Source of the DNA: Microbotryum silenes-acaulis
Taxonomy: Eukaryota > Basidiomycota > Microbotryomycetes > Microbotryales > Microbotryaceae
Reading direction: 5' to 3'
NCBI GenBank assembly: GCA_003665825.1
Contig: QPFY01000006.1
Span: 372,001-436,000 of the forward strand
Length of the DNA: 64,000 nt
Shown here: piece by piece, positions 38,402 through 53,230 of the stretch
How positions within the stretch are numbered: position 1 is the stretch's first letter
How the letters are laid out: each line of letters starts with the position of its first letter
Translations under genes and position numbers: made by a program
The notes under the pieces: model-generated
What the model saw: the letters and a program-made list of their open reading frames with translations, nothing else
What the model was told of the DNA's origin: nothing
The model's database searches: none

Positions 38402-40067
38402 ATCCGAGAGGGCTTTGATTTCGGCATCAAGGACCCTCCGTCGGAGCGTCACATCGCGAAGAACGCACCGCTCACCGAGAAGCAACAACTGGTCATGGAC
38501 GGCGAGATGGAGCGCTTGCTCGATCTCGGGTACATCGCGGGGCCGTACGACAAGGACGAGCTCGAGGCCGCGGTCGGTCCTTTCCGCACGAATCCGATCA
38601 GCTATGTGCCGAAGTCAGTAGCGCCCGGAATGCCGCCGAAGTGGAGATAGATCGAAAATCTGTCTTACCCCACGGCGAAGCCGATCGATCGAACCACAGA
38701 CCCTGACGAAGCGAATCATCCGTCGACGAGCGGGCATGGACCGTCGCAACGGAGTGGTTCGTCTAGCCGTCCGAAACTCGTTTCCATAAACGACGACCTG
38801 AAGTCTGCGGATTCTCCTTGCCGTTGGATGACCTTGCCCATGTTGTACCGCAAGTTTCGCGAGCTTCCCTCGACGGCGGAAGTCTGCGGTTGGGATTTCG
38901 CCGATGCGTTCTACCAACTCCCTTTGCGATGGGACCAGCGATCGAGCATGTGCATCTTGTGGCGCGGCCTCATCTTCGTACGACGAGTCCCATGCTTCGG
39001 TGGCAGGACCACTCCCGGTGTCTTTGGGAACGTCGCGGACCTGACCCAAGACTTGGTCGAATGGAAGTTCCCCGGCGTGTCAATCTTCAAGATGGTTGAC
39101 GATGTTTGCGGGGTCCCAACGTCGGATGCCATATCGCAAGAAGCCATTCTTCATTTCGTACGATCCCTCGGCTGGCGCCTCGCGGAGCAGAAAGGCTTCA
39201 CGTGGACGCGTCAATTTGTCCACGTCGAGATTGACTGGAATTTGGATCTAATGACTGCGACGGTCACCGATCAGAAGCGGATGCGCTACATTGACAGGAT
39301 CGACGCCTTGCTGAAAGGTAGCCACGCCGATCAGAAGGAATGCTCGGAAGTCGAGTCGGTCACTGGGTCGTTGGGGTATGTCGCCTACATCCTCCCTGCA
39401 TTACGGACCCATCTCAACTGTCTATACAGGCAGTGTATCGCATACGGGGACCGGAAGGCGGTTTCGCGGGCGCGTCTGGACCGTCGCACGTACGATCAAC
39501 TCGAATACTGGAGAAGGTTCCTCTCGTCGGAAGGCCCATTCTCCACGTCGTTCGAGGCCCTCCCGATCCCATCGAAGCTTGCGTTAGCGTTGGATGCCTG
39601 TATGCACGGACTAGGCATCGTCATCAACGGATACTCCGCGTACTTCGCTCTCCCCGAGGGGTGGACGGATCTGCCACCGCCTCGACACTCGGTCTCTATC
39701 ACGAACGCGGAGGCGTGGGCGGTCGAGGCGCTGGCCGAGGCAGCGTTATGAATGTGACGATAAACATTTCGTTCTCCAATGTGACAACACCGGGGTTGTG
39801 CTTGGATGGAGGAAAGGGCATTCGATGAATCCCTTGTTGAACTTGTCGCTTTCAAACCTGCGCAGCCTTGAGGAAACTCGAGGTGTGAAGTGGTCGATTG
39901 AATACATCAACACGAAGGTGAACCCCGCGGAAGTCGTGTCCCGGCAGCCAGACCGCCCGCGGCAGTACGAACCGTTCCCGTTGATGATCGCGCACCCACT
40001 GTCGAAGTTTCCGGCGGGGCGCGAGTTGCTGCGGGCGGCGGGAGAGCCCCTGTGGGCGATAGGCTGA
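38402..40067 (+). pseudogene. reverse transcriptase-RNase H of the retroelement, interrupted
   Basis: The RT frame continues from the gag-like frame through TAG at 38399-38401 and TAG at 38648-38650, both inside conserved sequence (IREGFDFG; KWR before IENLSYP). RT motifs include WDFADAFYQLPL and the active site MVDDV. The RNase H part starts LALALDACMHGLG. A one-base shift at about 39750 moves the frame; then LQCDNTGVVLGWRKG and VNPAEVVSRQ complete the RNase H. Stop at 40067. Confidence 0.82.
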
Positions 40068-40354
40068 GATATCTGACTCCCTTCGTGGAAGGTGGAGCTT
40101 TGTTCGCACAGAGTTGCGTATCCCTGTGTCTGCGAGGTCGTGTACCTTTTGTTTGTTGGTGAGGTCGAACCCTCTTGCGTCCTGTTTTGTCAATGTCACG
40201 CTGTCATGACTCAGAGCCGCGCTCTTGTGCCTCGGTTGCGACTTTGCGGTTGTCCGGTACTGTCCCGTCTCCGCCGCGAGAGCGTGATCGCGGGCGCGTG
40301 CTTGGCACGTTCGGCCTCCCCCCACCCGCGTCGCACGCCGTCTCGAAAATACAG

Positions 40355-41811
40355 ATGTCTTTCGAGGATTCACGAGCCGCGTGGAGGCTTCGTCAACGAG
40401 CCGTTCCGTACCCGACGATGCCGACGATGGCTGTGAGGGAGCGCGCCTTCAAGTCAGGAAGAGCGCTTACTGGTCGGGCCGACGCGTCGAGTTCGGCGCT
40501 GCGCGATGGAGCACCGGCTGCGGCGCCACCTCCGACTGTGAAACTGGATCGTAGCCCAGGGGCTTGTTGGGATTCACGTCGACGTCAAATCCAAGATTGC
40601 CAATGTTGCGCAGTTCCCATTCGGGGGACATCGTCGTTTACCTACCTGAGGCAGACGGGAACGAGATGGCCCCGATGGCTTCATCCACGAATTGCACGCC
40701 GGAGGAGCGGCTGTGCGCCGCGTTCGCCAAGACGTATCGAGGTATCAACCGAATTTTCGTTCTCACACCGACGACTCCGGTCCAACGTCCGCTCCATGCG
40801 TGTGCATTGGCTGCGACGGAGCACGCGGTGATGGTTGCGGCAGGGCGAACGGCGGAGTTGAACGAGATGTACGCGATGTGCATTCTACGATACCTCGAGT
40901 ACTGTGACGACGAGTTGGTCGACCGGAGGGATCGATTCCCCGCACATCCTGACGTCGTCAGGCGATTTCTCACTCGAATCGCGTTGTCGGGAAATGGCGT
41001 CGGAGCCTATAGCGTCAGCCACTTTCGCCGATTCCGTACCGCCCTAGAATTTTGGCACACGACGCATGGGCTGCGTATGAACTACGATCCGAAGATGTGG
41101 ACGATGCAACTGGCTGCGGCTGCGGCCACAGCTCCAGCCCCCAAACCAGAGCGATTGGCAGCGACTTTGGACGACCTCAGGTGCCTGGCCGCGGGGATCG
41201 ATAAGTGCAGTCCGTTCGATACGGCCGTGTTTGCTGCAGCGTGTGCGGCGTTCTTCGCGATGGCGAGATTGGGCGAGTTTACGGCGGATTCGGCGGACGA
41301 AGAGTTCATAGCCGAACGGCATCTAGCGGTGGCCAATGCACGTCGAATCGATGCGACGAGCGAAGCTCCTCTCCGATACGAGTTGGACCTCCCGTTTGAC
41401 AAGGTGCGTCGGCGCGTCGGCCGCATGCTGATAGTCTCGGCGCGAGACGGCGAGCCCTTCTGCCCGGTCGGAGGCATCGATAAACATTTCCGCCTAAACG
41501 ACCCTCCACCAGGGCGGTTGTTCTCATATCGGGCGCGCGAAGGATGTCATCGACAACTGACCTCCTCGGCGTTCTCGCGACGAATCAAACACATTCTCGA
41601 GGCGAGCGGGAGGGCGGTCTTGAACAACCACTCCTTTAGGTCCGGTGGGGCCACGTTTTACCTTTGAGAAGGTGTACACACGGATCACATCCGAAACCTT
41701 GGCCGTTGGTCATCGAATGCCTTCGACAGGTATTGGCGGCAGCACAAGGAGATTGCGATCCAAGTGCTGAGCAAGGCTGGCAAGCTTGCACTCGATTCGG
41801 GTAGAGCCTGA
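40355..41811 (+). pseudogene. tyrosine recombinase of the retroelement, nonsense-interrupted
   Basis: An N-terminal stretch in one frame (ATG 40355, SFEDSRAAWRLRQ) shifts near 40560 to the main frame, which runs to TGA at 41665-41667 and then continues, still in frame, to a natural stop at 41809-41811. Catalytic elements: first arginine in MARLGEF, H-x-x-R in NNHSFRSGG, and after the TGA the GRWSS segment and nucleophile tyrosine in FDRYWR. The nonsense codon therefore removes the nucleophile. It is homologous to recombinases of DIRS/Crypton type; the neighbouring RT places it in a retroelement. Confidence 0.82.
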
Positions 41812-45408: not shown

Positions 45409-47546
45409 ATGCGAGGCTTAATTATGTTTGAGCTTTTGGCATTGATGATGGTGTTGGAGAAGGTACAAGGCCACATGGTGAGTACCTCCGTGGGTTCAGG
45501 GGGTGATGACTCCCCGCTAGAACGTCGTCGTCGGACCTGCGCGTAGTTTGCGCCGTGTGACAGGATGCTGACTGTGCATTACTCCTACTCTTCAATTGCT
45601 CACATTGGTATATTGTACCTTCCAGACTATCTGGTAAGTCCCTCAACCACCCCATTCCTTCATTTCCTTGCCACTCGTCAGGCAGAACCTACAGCCCCTG
45701 TCCCATGGGATCCACGAGTTCTGACCGACGTCACCTAGGAGTAAATCCATGTACGGCGTCGGCAAAGACTTCAAATTCGTCGTACCCGGTCAACCTTGTG
45801 ACCCCATCGGCCCGGATTTGGAAACTCGAGATGAGTGGTGGTTCAGGTGAGCATCTCTGATCATGCCGTCCCGCTTTCCCCAACAAAGCGCACTGAACAA
45901 CCCCCTCTCCCCTCTCATTCGTGCATAAAGAGGCCCCGCATATCGAGCCCTCCCCCCTCCTGGAGGCGAAGTGACTGAACTGATCGCCGGCGAATCCGTA
46001 ACGTTTGAAATCTCTTGCCACGTCGCTTGGACCTCTTTCGGGTGGAGTACGACCAAACCTGGTAGTCATTTGGATGCTTGTCCCGGTAATCCTGGTACGT
46101 CGTACTTTTTTTCATCGCAACAAGTTCAAGTTGAGATTATTGAGTTGACGAAGGGTGTTCCCTTTCGCAGGGGCCTACCATTCAGGAGACCCTTTGAAAG
46201 ACTCTATCGACGAAAGCCTCCTATCAGGTTGCGCATTAGCCATCGCGGACGTGGACGATATTGAAAAGGTTACACCTGATAACCTCGTCATTTTTAGTGT
46301 TCAGTCTCAGTGTATAAAACAGAAGATCACGTCTTTTGAGGTAAGTCAAAGAGTGTTGAGGCAAGGCGTCGACGCGAATTGAGGCCCCTTCGCTGATTTT
46401 AAAATTTGCGACGGGATGTATACGCGGTAGGTCCCTGCGGCGATGCCTCCTTGCAAGGGGAAGAAATGTATTTGTGGTTGGTAAGTACCTTTCGTATCAA
46501 CCCGTAAGATAATTCGCCGCGTATATCGTATAATGGGATCGCTAAAATCATTCGTTTCACCACGCCGCCCGTGACAGGTTCTGGTAAGTGCTCAGCAACC
46601 AAAGGAGCTCAGCCGAGCAAATGACCGTAATCAACACTGACTTGATTCGCACCGCCCTCTCTCCACCAGGCTCGCCAACACCGGCGCCGTAAATTTCTAC
46701 ATGAGTGAGTTTCACATAAAACATAATCCAAGCACCTCCGATCAGCACCCAACCCTGAATAAAAACACCTACTCAACCGAACCTTTCGCTCCTCTCCTCT
46801 CCTAAGCCGCCTTCGACTGCGCCGTCACCAATCCTTCCCCCACCTCCATCCGACCAATCCAATTTCCCCTTTTGGATCCTTACATATGCGAAAATTATCC
46901 TCATAACCAATCTTGTATTCAAGTTCAACAGAAATACGCTAAAAGGCCTATTTACGCTTATAATGAACCGCAGAACGTGAAGTGGGTTTCGAATGAGGAT
47001 CGGGCGGGGTATCATGAGAAATGGGGGTGGGTGGATGGGGCGCAGGAGGGGATTTTTGGGGAAGGGAATGTGGTTGGGATGGGGACTAGTGAGAGGGGTA
47101 GGGGTGTGGCGATCAAAGGTGATGCGCGGACTGCGACGACGATGGCTGCGACTGGGAAGGCGACGATTACGTCGACGAAATTGGAGAAGACTACACCGAA
47201 GCCGACAGCGACGAGGGTGACGACTACAATTCAAGTCCAATATCGAAAGGCACCGTCAGCTCATCGTACTCCCGAGCCTCAGGGCGTCAAGTGCAAGAAG
47301 AACAAGCCGAAGCACGCTGCCGCCGTTTCAAAGCTGAAATTGATGTTGATGATGACCGACTCGGCCAGGGCCAAGCCAAGAATCAAGCCCAAGCACAAGT
47401 CCAAGCACCACAACCACAACCACACCAAGCAAAAACATCACCGACACACCAAACAAGCCCAGCCTAAGAGGAGCAGCAAGACGCAGGGACGTCGTCAATC
47501 GAGCAAGACTGGTCGACCCAAGCTACGAATGACCTCCTGTCTTTGA
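45409..47546 (+). CDS. AA14-like lytic polysaccharide monooxygenase with basic His-rich tail
   Basis: Nine exons: 45409-45477, 45626-45633, 45739-45846, 45931-46094, 46171-46340, 46431-46480, 46578-46583, 46670-46704, 46807-47546. They total 1350 nt (449 residues). A 21-residue signal peptide would leave His at the mature N-terminus (GHM), as needed for a copper histidine brace. Exon joining gives HMTIWSKSMYGVG, WWFRG, CPGNPGAYHSGD (candidate second His), CALAIADVDD, CKGKKCICGWFWLANTG and NFYMTAFDC (candidate axial Tyr), the order seen in AA14 copper oxygenases that cleave polysaccharides such as xylan. After about residue 300 comes a Thr-rich linker and a Lys/His-rich tail. Two micro-exons (8 and 6 nt) are required. 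AA14 assignment is from motif recall. Confidence 0.8.
45626..45633 (+). other. 8-nt micro-exon of the AA14-like gene
   Basis: Acceptor TTCCAG, exon ACTATCTG, donor GTAAGT. It adds T-I and two bases of the W codon, giving H-M-T-I-W-S-K-S-M-Y at the mature N-terminus and correcting phase between exons 1 and 3. Confidence 0.88.
46578..46583 (+). other. 6-nt micro-exon of the AA14-like gene
   Basis: Acceptor GTGACAG, exon GTTCTG, donor GTAAGT. It is bounded by introns of 97 and 86 nt and forms the centre of the conserved W-F-W-L-A-N motif. Skipping it keeps the frame but deletes two residues (F and W) of that motif. Confidence 0.85.
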
Positions 47547-49764: not shown

Positions 49765-52541
49765 CTACACCTTCCCCGCGAACAACCTCCCCCCCACAAT
49801 CGTCGCGACGACTTTGACTTCGGGGATTTCAAAGTCTTCCACCTCGAACAGATCCCGATCTAGGATGGTGAAATCCGCCTCTTTTCCTTTCTCCACCGAC
49901 CCGATTTGGTTCTCTTGGAAGGCAGCGTATGCGGCCCCTGTGGTGAAGCCACGGAGGGTGTCGAGCATCGACAGACGTTCGGAAGGATACCTGAAGGCGG
50001 AAAGAAGCGCGAAAGAGTCAGCTCGGGGAGATCGAACTATTACTCGCTCGAGGTCACACTATATTCAACTGACTGACCATCCATCAGTTCCATGAGGTGA
50101 ATCCCCATTGCTCCATTTCCTCGTCGTCGCCGCGTAGATACCCAGCATCGGATTCACTTTCTCTACAGGGAAATCCGAGCCGAGTGCGATTGGACTCCCG
50201 GCGCTAAAACGAAAGGGGACTCGCTTGGTCAGCACCGAGCAGTCAGGAATGAGTGCAAAGATACTCACGCTTTCAGGGAAGCCCATGCGTAAGCACCCTT
50301 GATCCTTTCGGCTCCGATTCGTTTTTCGGCGTACGACATATCACTCGTCGCTGAGCGCAAACGTTAATTCAACCGGATCCTGGCGCTTGATATCGTTATT
50401 CTCACTTACCGTGCGTAGGTTGCACACTCGAGATGATACCCAACCGACCCGTCCGCGCGATATCATCTTGACTCTATAGAGTAACACCTATCAGTCAAAC
50501 TTCCTCCTCGAACCTCCTCGCACCTCCTCTTTCGACCACTCACCAAAATTTGCGCATGCTCCAACCTCAGCCTCAAGTCCCTCGGCGAAATACCTGCGGG
50601 CGCATACTTCTCATATGCGTCTAATATGATCTCCGCTGCGTGGTCACCGATGACGTGCGAATTGACTTGGAAACCCTGTCGGGGATCATTCGTGATGCGG
50701 AAACAAGGTCAATTCACGCAAGCCTCCGTAGGTAAAAAATGAACTTGGACGGGACCTTGTCGATCCACTGTAAAGACAAGAGGGTGGCAAAAGTCAGCAC
50801 CACCCCCCCACCCCCACCCGGTATTTCTAGGGATACACACTTCGCCATTGCTATCTACCCCCACCTTCTTAATCAAAGGCCCGATTTTTTCTTCAGGCGA
50901 GATTAAAATCCCCTTCTCGCCCTTCCGATCCGAATAATCCTCCTTCATCGCCGCGCCCCAACTTCCCAACGCCCCATCCGTAAAAATCTTGACGGCCCTC
51001 ACTTCGAACCTCTCCCCTTTATACTTGGTCAATTTTTCCCCACAATAAGAGTTCAAAGGTTCGCAAGAGACCATTCCGTAAATTCGGATGGGTAGACGAC
51101 CTTCTTGGTCGATCTTACGCAGGAAGTTGATGTCCGAGAGGGAGAGGGAAGCGTCGTGTACACTGGTGAGACCGAGATCGAGCATCTCGCGCGCGGTCGA
51201 GGTTAGGAATCGAAGACGGTCTTTGTCGGTCCAGGGTGGAATGACTGCAGCTAGATGGGTAAAGGTAGACGTCCGTGATGAATTTGCTTTAGTTCGAGTC
51301 CTGACGAGGGCAGCTCAGTCTGACTCGACTCACCAACGAGTGCCATCGCATTGTCGAGGAAGATACCCGTCGGTGACCCATCCGATGCGCGAACAACAAG
51401 ACCACCCGTGACATGCTCAGGAAGTGAACCCATCCGGTCCAAGATCGTTTGAGAAACCCAAAGGGCGTGCACATCAACTGCGAAAGAAGGTTTGGTACGC
51501 GTCAGATTGTGACGATCGAGAAGCTGCAAACTCAGGACCGGAGCGGGAAGACGGACTTCGCTTGAGATGAATGGGTCTTCCAGCCAGTCGAGGGTCGCGT
51601 TCCAAGTCGTCCTGACCGATTTTCACAAAGGCCCATTCAATCAGTGTCTTCAAATGCATAACGCCGCGTGAACAGATTCCACTCTTGACCACTCACCGAA
51701 GTAGGAAACTCGCCTCCGAACCACTTGGTCTGATCCCACCCCAATCCCAAGATGAACCTCGAGTGATCGTTGCGCAAGTCGTCGTCTTTTTCGATGAAAC
51801 TTGCGATTCTATCGATCACATCTTCTCGCCAGCAAGACAAATATTATCCGTCAGCTAAACTTCGCTCTGCCCCGAGCGCGAGTCGGTCAAGGTTTTTGCC
51901 TCCTTACCTTGAACCGAAGTCGACCCTACCAGATCGACGGCAGTTGCGGCTTCTCCATTTTGTAGCACATGTGCATGGGCATCTGTTCTAACGTATGAAC
52001 GCATTCCCGATCAGCATGATCTTCACTGCTTCGTAAAAACTCAACCGACCTCACGACCCGTCACGTGTTCAAAAAGGTCATCTAGAAAGCAAAGAACCTC
52101 GACTCACAATCCGGGCAAGAGCATTTGCCCTTTTCTCAACCTATACACCTTACTTCCACTATCCTTTCCTACCATCTGTTCATCCCCATACACCTCTCTG
52201 ACATGAGCCAAATCGCCCGTATCGACGATCTTGCCATTCCTCACGACAACGCAACCTTTCTTGGACTCGTTCGCATCAAAGGTATAGACCTGCGACGAGT
52301 TGCGGTAAGAACAAATCGCGTAGGTTTTAGGGAGATGTTGGGTCGGTGAGGATCTGCGTTGGAGAAGAATGATCCAACCTAGGATGAGGGGGGCGAAGAG
52401 GAGCGCGAGACGAGGTCGGGACATGGTCATTCCCCGCGGTACACGGCGGTCTTTGGAGGAACCTGACCCCGAGGATGCGGATGTGGGATGATTTGAAGAC
52501 GCGGAGGAAGAGGTTACGGGCTTGCGTTGACGTAGAGTCAT
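49765..52541 (-). CDS. membrane-anchored amidohydrolase, YtcJ-like (amidohydrolase family 3)
   Basis: Twelve exons: 52108-52541, 51908-51987, 51697-51824, 51557-51611, 51334-51477, 50865-51250, 50756-50767, 50544-50675, 50410-50473, 50269-50350, 50078-50203, 49765-49990. They total 1869 nt (622 residues). Residues about 45-60 form one N-terminal transmembrane anchor, so the enzyme likely faces the secretory lumen or outside. Metal-site motifs are LTDAHAHV (HxH), HVIGDHA, LEHAQIL and GSDFPVE. Family-typical joins appear only after splicing: HLKR to IDVHALWVSQ, and PLIKK to WIDKGFQVNSH. Several donors are weak (GTCCGT, GTCCCG, GTGGGG), but phases and motifs support them. Substrate unknown. Confidence 0.85.
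50756..50767 (-). other. 12-nt micro-exon of the amidohydrolase gene
   Basis: Exon TGGATCGACAAG (W-I-D-K) lies between acceptor TTACAG and donor GTCCCG. It joins LIKK to GFQVNSHVIGD. The donor is non-consensus after GT, so support rests on family spacing and phase. Confidence 0.7.
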
Positions 52542-53230
52542 GGTTCGGTCGCTTGTTCCTCTGCGCGAAGAGCCGCTCGATCAAGGGTGCGCGAGGGGGA
52601 TTCGGCGGTCGCGCAGCTCGTATCCTATCCAACGTGGACTCGACTGAAGTCGACGTACGACCAGGTAAAGGATGATACGTCCGTCCGTGGCGAGCAAAGA
52701 GTAGGAGGTGTTGAGCGTAGGGCGTGCACGGACGAGACCACTGCAGTCGTTGTGCGACGTCACCTTCAGAAGTGAGGCCCACGCAATGTGGGGCGCCGTC
52801 GCGCCAACTCCCGCCGTCACCGAAGGGATCAATATTTGCCAAGGCTCATCGAAGTTGAAGCACATAGCTCAAAGCTGACACATAATTGTGTGTGAACTCA
52901 GACTCTCAAAAAGCAGGGTAGGCTTGGGAAAATCAAGGTGTATTATCAGTTCATGCTCGTCTCTCGTTTCATGCAAACCGATAACCCATATCGGCGGGTC
53001 TGGTGGGTATTCTGAGCTGACGCGACGATGCATGCCATCGTCTTTGTGATCGTAATCTCAAGCTCAAGCTCACGCACCCCGATCCTCTTCCTCATTATTC
53101 TGTCCATTACGACCATTTATCTCGTCTAAAGCTACACGGAAACAAACTCAACAACGAGCACAACAAATCGAGAAACTCCATCACCTGAGTTGGCTCCTCT
53201 TCAAGTGACCACCCTTCTACCCCGCAGTCT
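52542..53230. other. intergenic: amidohydrolase promoter
   Basis: About 690 bp without a supported gene; upstream region of the amidohydrolase and 3' flank of the next gene. Confidence 0.55.

Follow-up and report, generated by a model that had tools for sequence, protein, structure and literature searches.

Two candidate microexons of 8 and 6 nucleotides in an AA14-type lytic polysaccharide monooxygenase gene of Microbotryum silenes-acaulis

A stretch of 64,000 nucleotides (nt) from the genome of the basidiomycete Microbotryum silenes-acaulis (contig QPFY01000006.1, positions 372,001 to 436,000; hereafter the window) carries a gene of the AA14 family of lytic polysaccharide monooxygenases (LPMOs), copper enzymes directed at plant cell walls, in which two extremely short coding exons, of 8 and 6 nt, are very probably real, as judged from the sequence of the gene and of its homologues. 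We put at about 0.9 the probability that this is a functional gene for a secreted AA14 LPMO of a Microbotryum-type basidiomycete, with both microexons constitutively included in the message.

The gene occupies positions 45409-47546 of the forward strand and consists of nine exons with an intact open reading frame (ORF) and eight GT-AG introns. The exons, of 69, 8, 108, 164, 170, 50, 6, 35 and 740 nt, add up to 1350 nt, or 450 codons with the stop, and encode a protein of 449 amino acids; the introns are 76-148 nt long, and those that flank the microexons 86-148 nt. An earlier reading of the same DNA, made from its letters alone (the original prediction), had arrived at nine exons and 450 codons, which holds when the stop codon is counted, but its end point of 46806 omits exon 9 and has to be moved to 47546.

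Evidence for the two microexons

Both microexons (internal exons of less than about 30 nt) lie where the original prediction had placed them, with CAG acceptors and with the GTAAGT donors that it had described, and each is a short internal coding segment that has splice consensus on both sides and is needed for frame or motif. Three of the four donors adjacent to the microexons are GTAAGT and the fourth is GTGAGT, matching the U1 consensus at 6-8 of 9 positions. Across the plus strand of the window, a pyrimidine-rich acceptor (by a threshold of our choice) stands 1-12 nt upstream of GTAAGT at 2 of 11 occurrences, which are the two microexons; on the minus strand this is so at 1 of 12. Two features of the proposed structure are weaker: the acceptor tract of exon 7 has pyrimidines at only 10 of 17 positions, and intron 6 contains no strict CTRAY branch site.

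All open GT-AG paths through the two regions were enumerated, with 40 nt as the minimum intron length and a single middle exon of 1-30 nt allowed at most, limits that we set ourselves, and scored with a matrix built from 42 rows of one homologue alignment (A1), from which this protein and its homologues P0001 and P0002 had been left out. The first site, from the start codon to M30, allows 66 open paths, of which the one proposed, with the 8-nt exon, ranks first with a score of 19.5. The runners-up (14.8, 9.6 and 9.6) keep the same 8-nt exon but take a different donor, within exon 1 or beyond it; paths that lack the 8-nt exon reach 9.1 at best, and the seven single-intron paths, none of which retains the motif, score 3.5 at most. 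At the second site only six paths are open; the path with the 6-nt exon leads with 37.7, followed by 21.6 for an alternative with two weak donors and 18.3 for plain skipping. As a control, the introns were shuffled 2000 times each with dinucleotide composition preserved and the outer ends fixed. The observed score was reached in none of the 2000 shuffles at the 6-nt site, and at the 8-nt site in three of 2000 when any GT donor was allowed and in none when a strong donor, from a list that we chose, was demanded.

The consequences of skipping differ between the two exons. As had been claimed, exon 1 cannot be joined to exon 3 in phase: omission of exon 2 yields a product of 24 residues that ends GHME-stop, with the stop one codon past the exon 1 sequence. 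Omission of exon 7 keeps the frame, again as foreseen, and gives 447 residues with CICGW-LAN in place of CICGWFWLAN, F191 and W192 being lost. The nine-exon model yields both expected segments, HMTIWSKSMY and CICGWFWLAN. Their conservation, also part of the original prediction, holds, though by degrees: most homologues read H-M-[ST]-x-[WFY] at the first site, with exceptions, and of 74 deposited homologues 66 keep W-[FLM]-W at the second.

The microexons would arise because the coding sequence between neighbouring introns is no longer than 8 nt in one case and 6 nt in the other, and would be included constitutively, each of the short flanking introns being paired across itself (intron definition) and both being removed one after the other. 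Stepwise removal is suggested because a 6-nt exon could hardly bear the complexes of its 3' and 5' splice sites together. If intron 7 were removed first, an ordinary exon of 41 nt would result, with the acceptor CAG|GTTCTGGCTC. Intron definition with one-by-one removal is the natural reading. Overall the earlier interpretation is borne out in part. Sequence, frame, splice consensus and homology are what the data show directly; that both exons enter the mRNA and are used constitutively, the order of splicing and the function of the enzyme are inferred.

Table 1. Parts of the AA14 gene, in window coordinates
Feature	Position	Strand	Description
Exon 1	45409..45477	+	encodes the putative signal peptide and ends with ...G21-H22-M23, in which H22 is the predicted copper ligand at the mature N-terminus (His1)
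Intron 1	45478..45625	+	148 nt; GTGAGT...CAG
Microexon 2	45626..45633	+	8 nt, ACTATCTG; encodes T24 and I25 and opens the codon of W26 (two bases)
Intron 2	45634..45738	+	105 nt; GTAAGT...TAG; branch-like CTGAC 14 nt before 3' end
Exon 3	45739..45846	+	108 nt
Intron 3	45847-45930	+	sole LPMO-domain intron position common to the gene and its paralogue
Exon 4	45931..46094	+	164 nt
Exon 5	46171..46340	+	170 nt; starts within codon of G117, followed by A118, Y119 and H120, the last being the brace's second His
Exon 6	46431..46480	+	50 nt; ends C186-I-C-G189 plus TG of W190
Intron 6	46481..46577	+	97 nt; GTAAGT...CAG; YTNAY-like TTCAC 18 nt before 3' end
Microexon 7	46578..46583	+	6 nt, GTTCTG; completes the codon of W190 (one base), encodes F191 and opens the codon of W192 (two bases)
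Intron 7	46584..46669	+	86 nt; GTAAGT...CAG; branch-like CTGAC 29 nt before 3' end
Exon 8	46670..46704	+	35 nt; holds Y202, Tyr of the brace
Exon 9	46807..47546	+	740 nt with stop; end of LPMO domain and Lys/His-rich tail

Elsewhere in the window, two long ORFs at 38651-41667 on the plus strand resemble by eye a reverse transcriptase and a tyrosine recombinase, perhaps of a DIRS-like retrotransposon, and pieces at 50709-52580 on the minus strand resemble by eye an amidohydrolase gene.

The AA14 protein and its deposited relatives

The AA14 identity that had been proposed is confirmed by alignment to the family. The spliced protein matches the Pfam family LPMO_AA14 (PF22810) at 2.4e-55, with 188.7 bits against a cut-off of 27, and the structure of PcAA14B of Pycnoporus coccineus (5NO7) at 5.1e-30; it is also assigned the AA14 fold. 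Residues H22, H120 and Y202 align on H1, H99 and Y176 of 5NO7, that is, on the copper brace of N-terminal His, second His and Tyr described in PMC10885436. The two proteins share the fold, the positions of the His brace and the C-x-C-A-W-F-W strand, and differ in that identity over the aligned domain is 31% and that the solved chain lacks the Lys/His-rich tail. Oxidative, copper-dependent cleavage of polysaccharides is predicted from this homology, and the putative signal peptide is called by eye and from the predicted N-terminal helix of P0001 only. The part of the protein encoded by exon 9 ends in a Lys/His-rich C-terminus, HNHNHTKQKHHRH, whose HN repeat is longer in P0001; there the predicted structure of the tail has a pLDDT (predicted local distance difference test) below 50, and binding of metal or of the cell wall by the tail is a guess.

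Seventy-four deposited homologues were compared; the counts given here were made over all 74, separately from three alignments (A1, A2 and A3), each of which holds a differing set of 44 of them. The closest, P0001 of M. silenes-dioicae (453 amino acids, 92% identity over the whole length), contains both microexon segments, as GHMTIWSKSMY and CICGWFWLAN. In a 45-row alignment W192 is invariant and W190 nearly so. The motif is absent, or disturbed nearby, in eight proteins: P0002, P0047, P0053, P0059, P0060, P0062, P0067 and P0068. P0002, from M. intermedium, has the first segment but reads CICS-W-LAN, so that exactly the residues F-W of the 6-nt exon are missing; we found no publication on how the gene models of that species were made. 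In P0053, from Rhodotorula toruloides, CICGW is followed by 20 extra residues ending in R and then by FWLAN, which fits read-through up to AG|G, and in P0068 of the same species the downstream block is frame-shifted in a way that fits CA[A/G]G before the codons for FWLANNGTA, at one of the eight offsets that were tried. P0047, from Sporobolomyces blumeae, reads CICA-C...LLR-LAN at the site; in P0059 ...TGTK is joined to LAE, in P0067 ...KC is joined to MTAF, and P0060 and P0062 have lost larger pieces. The simplest reading of these eight exceptions is that the gene models are in error around the site, and several resemble missed or retained introns. If so, the position of intron 6 would be common to R. 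toruloides, with F-W-L-A-N there in one exon, and S. blumeae would have both intron 6 and intron 7. Because no DNA of relatives was confirmed among 92 pattern matches in viral contigs and 29 in genome contigs, intron positions in other species are deduced solely from errors in deposited proteins.

At the N-terminus, His occupies the His1 column in 46 of the 74 proteins, 11 start at or near M23, five have M30 as their first residue, and the remaining 12 are cut in other ways or differ. Membership of the M23 class was decided by a text pattern, so that P0067, with its MTVF start, was sorted as other, and some members come from short, perhaps cut contigs. The 16 proteins of the M23 and M30 classes therefore have no catalytic N-terminal His, probably because 5' exons were missed or contigs are cut; a start at M30 is what would be expected of a gene finder that missed the small exon 2.

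Alternative readings

The alternative that survives best, though still unlikely, is that the 6-nt exon is a cassette, omitted in a minor or regulated isoform that lacks F-W, perhaps through re-splicing at the AG|GT before the exon. Skipping preserves the frame; the exon opens with GT directly after CAG, so that removal of intron 6 would create a weak donor, GTTCTG; and P0002 looks like such a product while its protein still models as AA14. However, GTTCTG is a poor donor compared with the GTAAGT 6 nt downstream, the tryptophans that frame the site are conserved as described, the seven other broken proteins show read-through, loss of frame or larger losses, which argues for annotation error, and microexons are often missed by automated annotation, according to PMC12940212. 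A bolder and rather improbable extension is that the 6-nt exon is old across the AA14 genes of Microbotryomycetes wherever both Trp-codon introns are kept (in Microbotryum and probably in Sporobolomyces), and that in-frame skipping gives a second, functionally different LPMO; the breaks in M. intermedium, S. blumeae and R. toruloides would then be a mixture of real isoforms and annotation errors.

The genome (29.85 Mb in 88 contigs) was also searched for further AA14 genes, with counts that are lower bounds. At least one other AA14 locus is present, on contig C10 (locus L003), and in this paralogue HMSIWTTSM and CICGWFWLANN are each contained within one exon, without introns at either microexon site. 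The 8-nt and 6-nt microexons would accordingly not be ancestral to both paralogues, or have been lost in the other. The paralogue has a 12-nt microexon of its own, TCTCTTACGACA, at L003:2595-2606 (minus strand of the locus), in a place that differs from both microexons and needed for F-S-Y-D-T, residues present in the deposited proteins P0022 and P0027; microexons are hence not peculiar to one gene.

It is very improbable that the introns around the microexons are introners (recently inserted mobile introns) or belong to spliceosomal twin introns. In favour of this reading, a Trp codon is interrupted as TG|G by each of introns 2, 6 and 7, all with a GTAAGT donor, a pattern that could come from repeated insertion into similar targets, and in the paralogue there are no introns at the corresponding positions. 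Against this, searches of the genome at E <= 1, very common words being skipped, returned only the regions themselves, with no second copy of introns 1 and 2 or of 6 and 7, and the eight introns match the window and each other over only 8-30 bases; an introner origin is not supported by these results, and we found no publication that joins Microbotryum with introners. The conserved residues encoded between the introns speak against a twin-intron (stwintron) arrangement (intron 6 as the internal member would cost the conserved F-W), and the deposited proteins of relatives point to an old position for intron 6. Least likely is that either microexon, or both, arose by coincidence in a pseudogene or in a gene that is spliced in some other way. 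In its favour are the three equalling shuffles at the 8-nt site and the sequence-based nature of the support; against it are an intact ORF, family-wide conservation, an intact and closely similar protein in a second species, and failure of the strong-donor shuffles at either site.

Comparison with known short exons

Exons of this size are already known from fungi, and the gene is a well-supported further case. In the bglA genes of Hamamotoa singularis, Rhodotorula minuta (of the same subphylum as M. silenes-acaulis) and Sirobasidium magnum, the shortest exons determined from complementary DNA (cDNA) are of 18, 6 and 5 base pairs (bp), exons below 30 bp number 3, 10 and 2, and mean introns are 59-81 bp long, features that the authors regard as putatively common among genes of basidiomycetous yeasts (PMC9142197); these are likewise intron-rich genes for carbohydrate-active enzymes, but encode a GH1 beta-glycosidase and not an LPMO. 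Microexons, the smallest exon being of 6 bp, are found in the P450 genes of Phanerochaete chrysosporium (PMC1184071), also an oxidase family of a basidiomycete but a different enzyme family, with sizes taken from assembled genes and cDNA for some families. The 1-nt exon of Fusarium CYP621A (PMC12940212) was, as here, recognized from frame and a conserved motif and checked with an intronless relative; it differs in being 1 nt long, ascomycete and confirmed by RNA reads. In Trichoderma virens a microexon switch in Xlr2, for which intron definition is cited, links a fungal microexon to enzymes that degrade the plant cell wall, although it is regulated and lies in a transcription factor (PMC11121469); the abstract of that 2024 paper calls functional microexons previously undescribed in filamentous fungi, a statement that concerns regulated function. 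The mechanism considered here resembles the one proposed for the 1-nt exon of APC11 in Arabidopsis, intron definition with recursive, stepwise removal, there in a plant and tested with reporter constructs (PMC4674806). No paper combining AA14 and a microexon was found in a search largely outside subscription journals.

In M. lychnidis-dioicae, whose genes average 5.6 exons, annotation marked any internal exon of up to 6 nt for checking by hand (PMC4469406). The gene described here has its microexons at the catalytic heart of the enzyme, one starting one codon past the His1 codon and the other encoding part of the core strand. Because 16 of the 74 deposited homologues lack His1 and eight are broken or incomplete at W-F-W, manual review of AA14 gene models is advisable before cloning. 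For splicing biology the gene is one more example of a known phenomenon; what it adds is a sound gene model and a warning for annotation.
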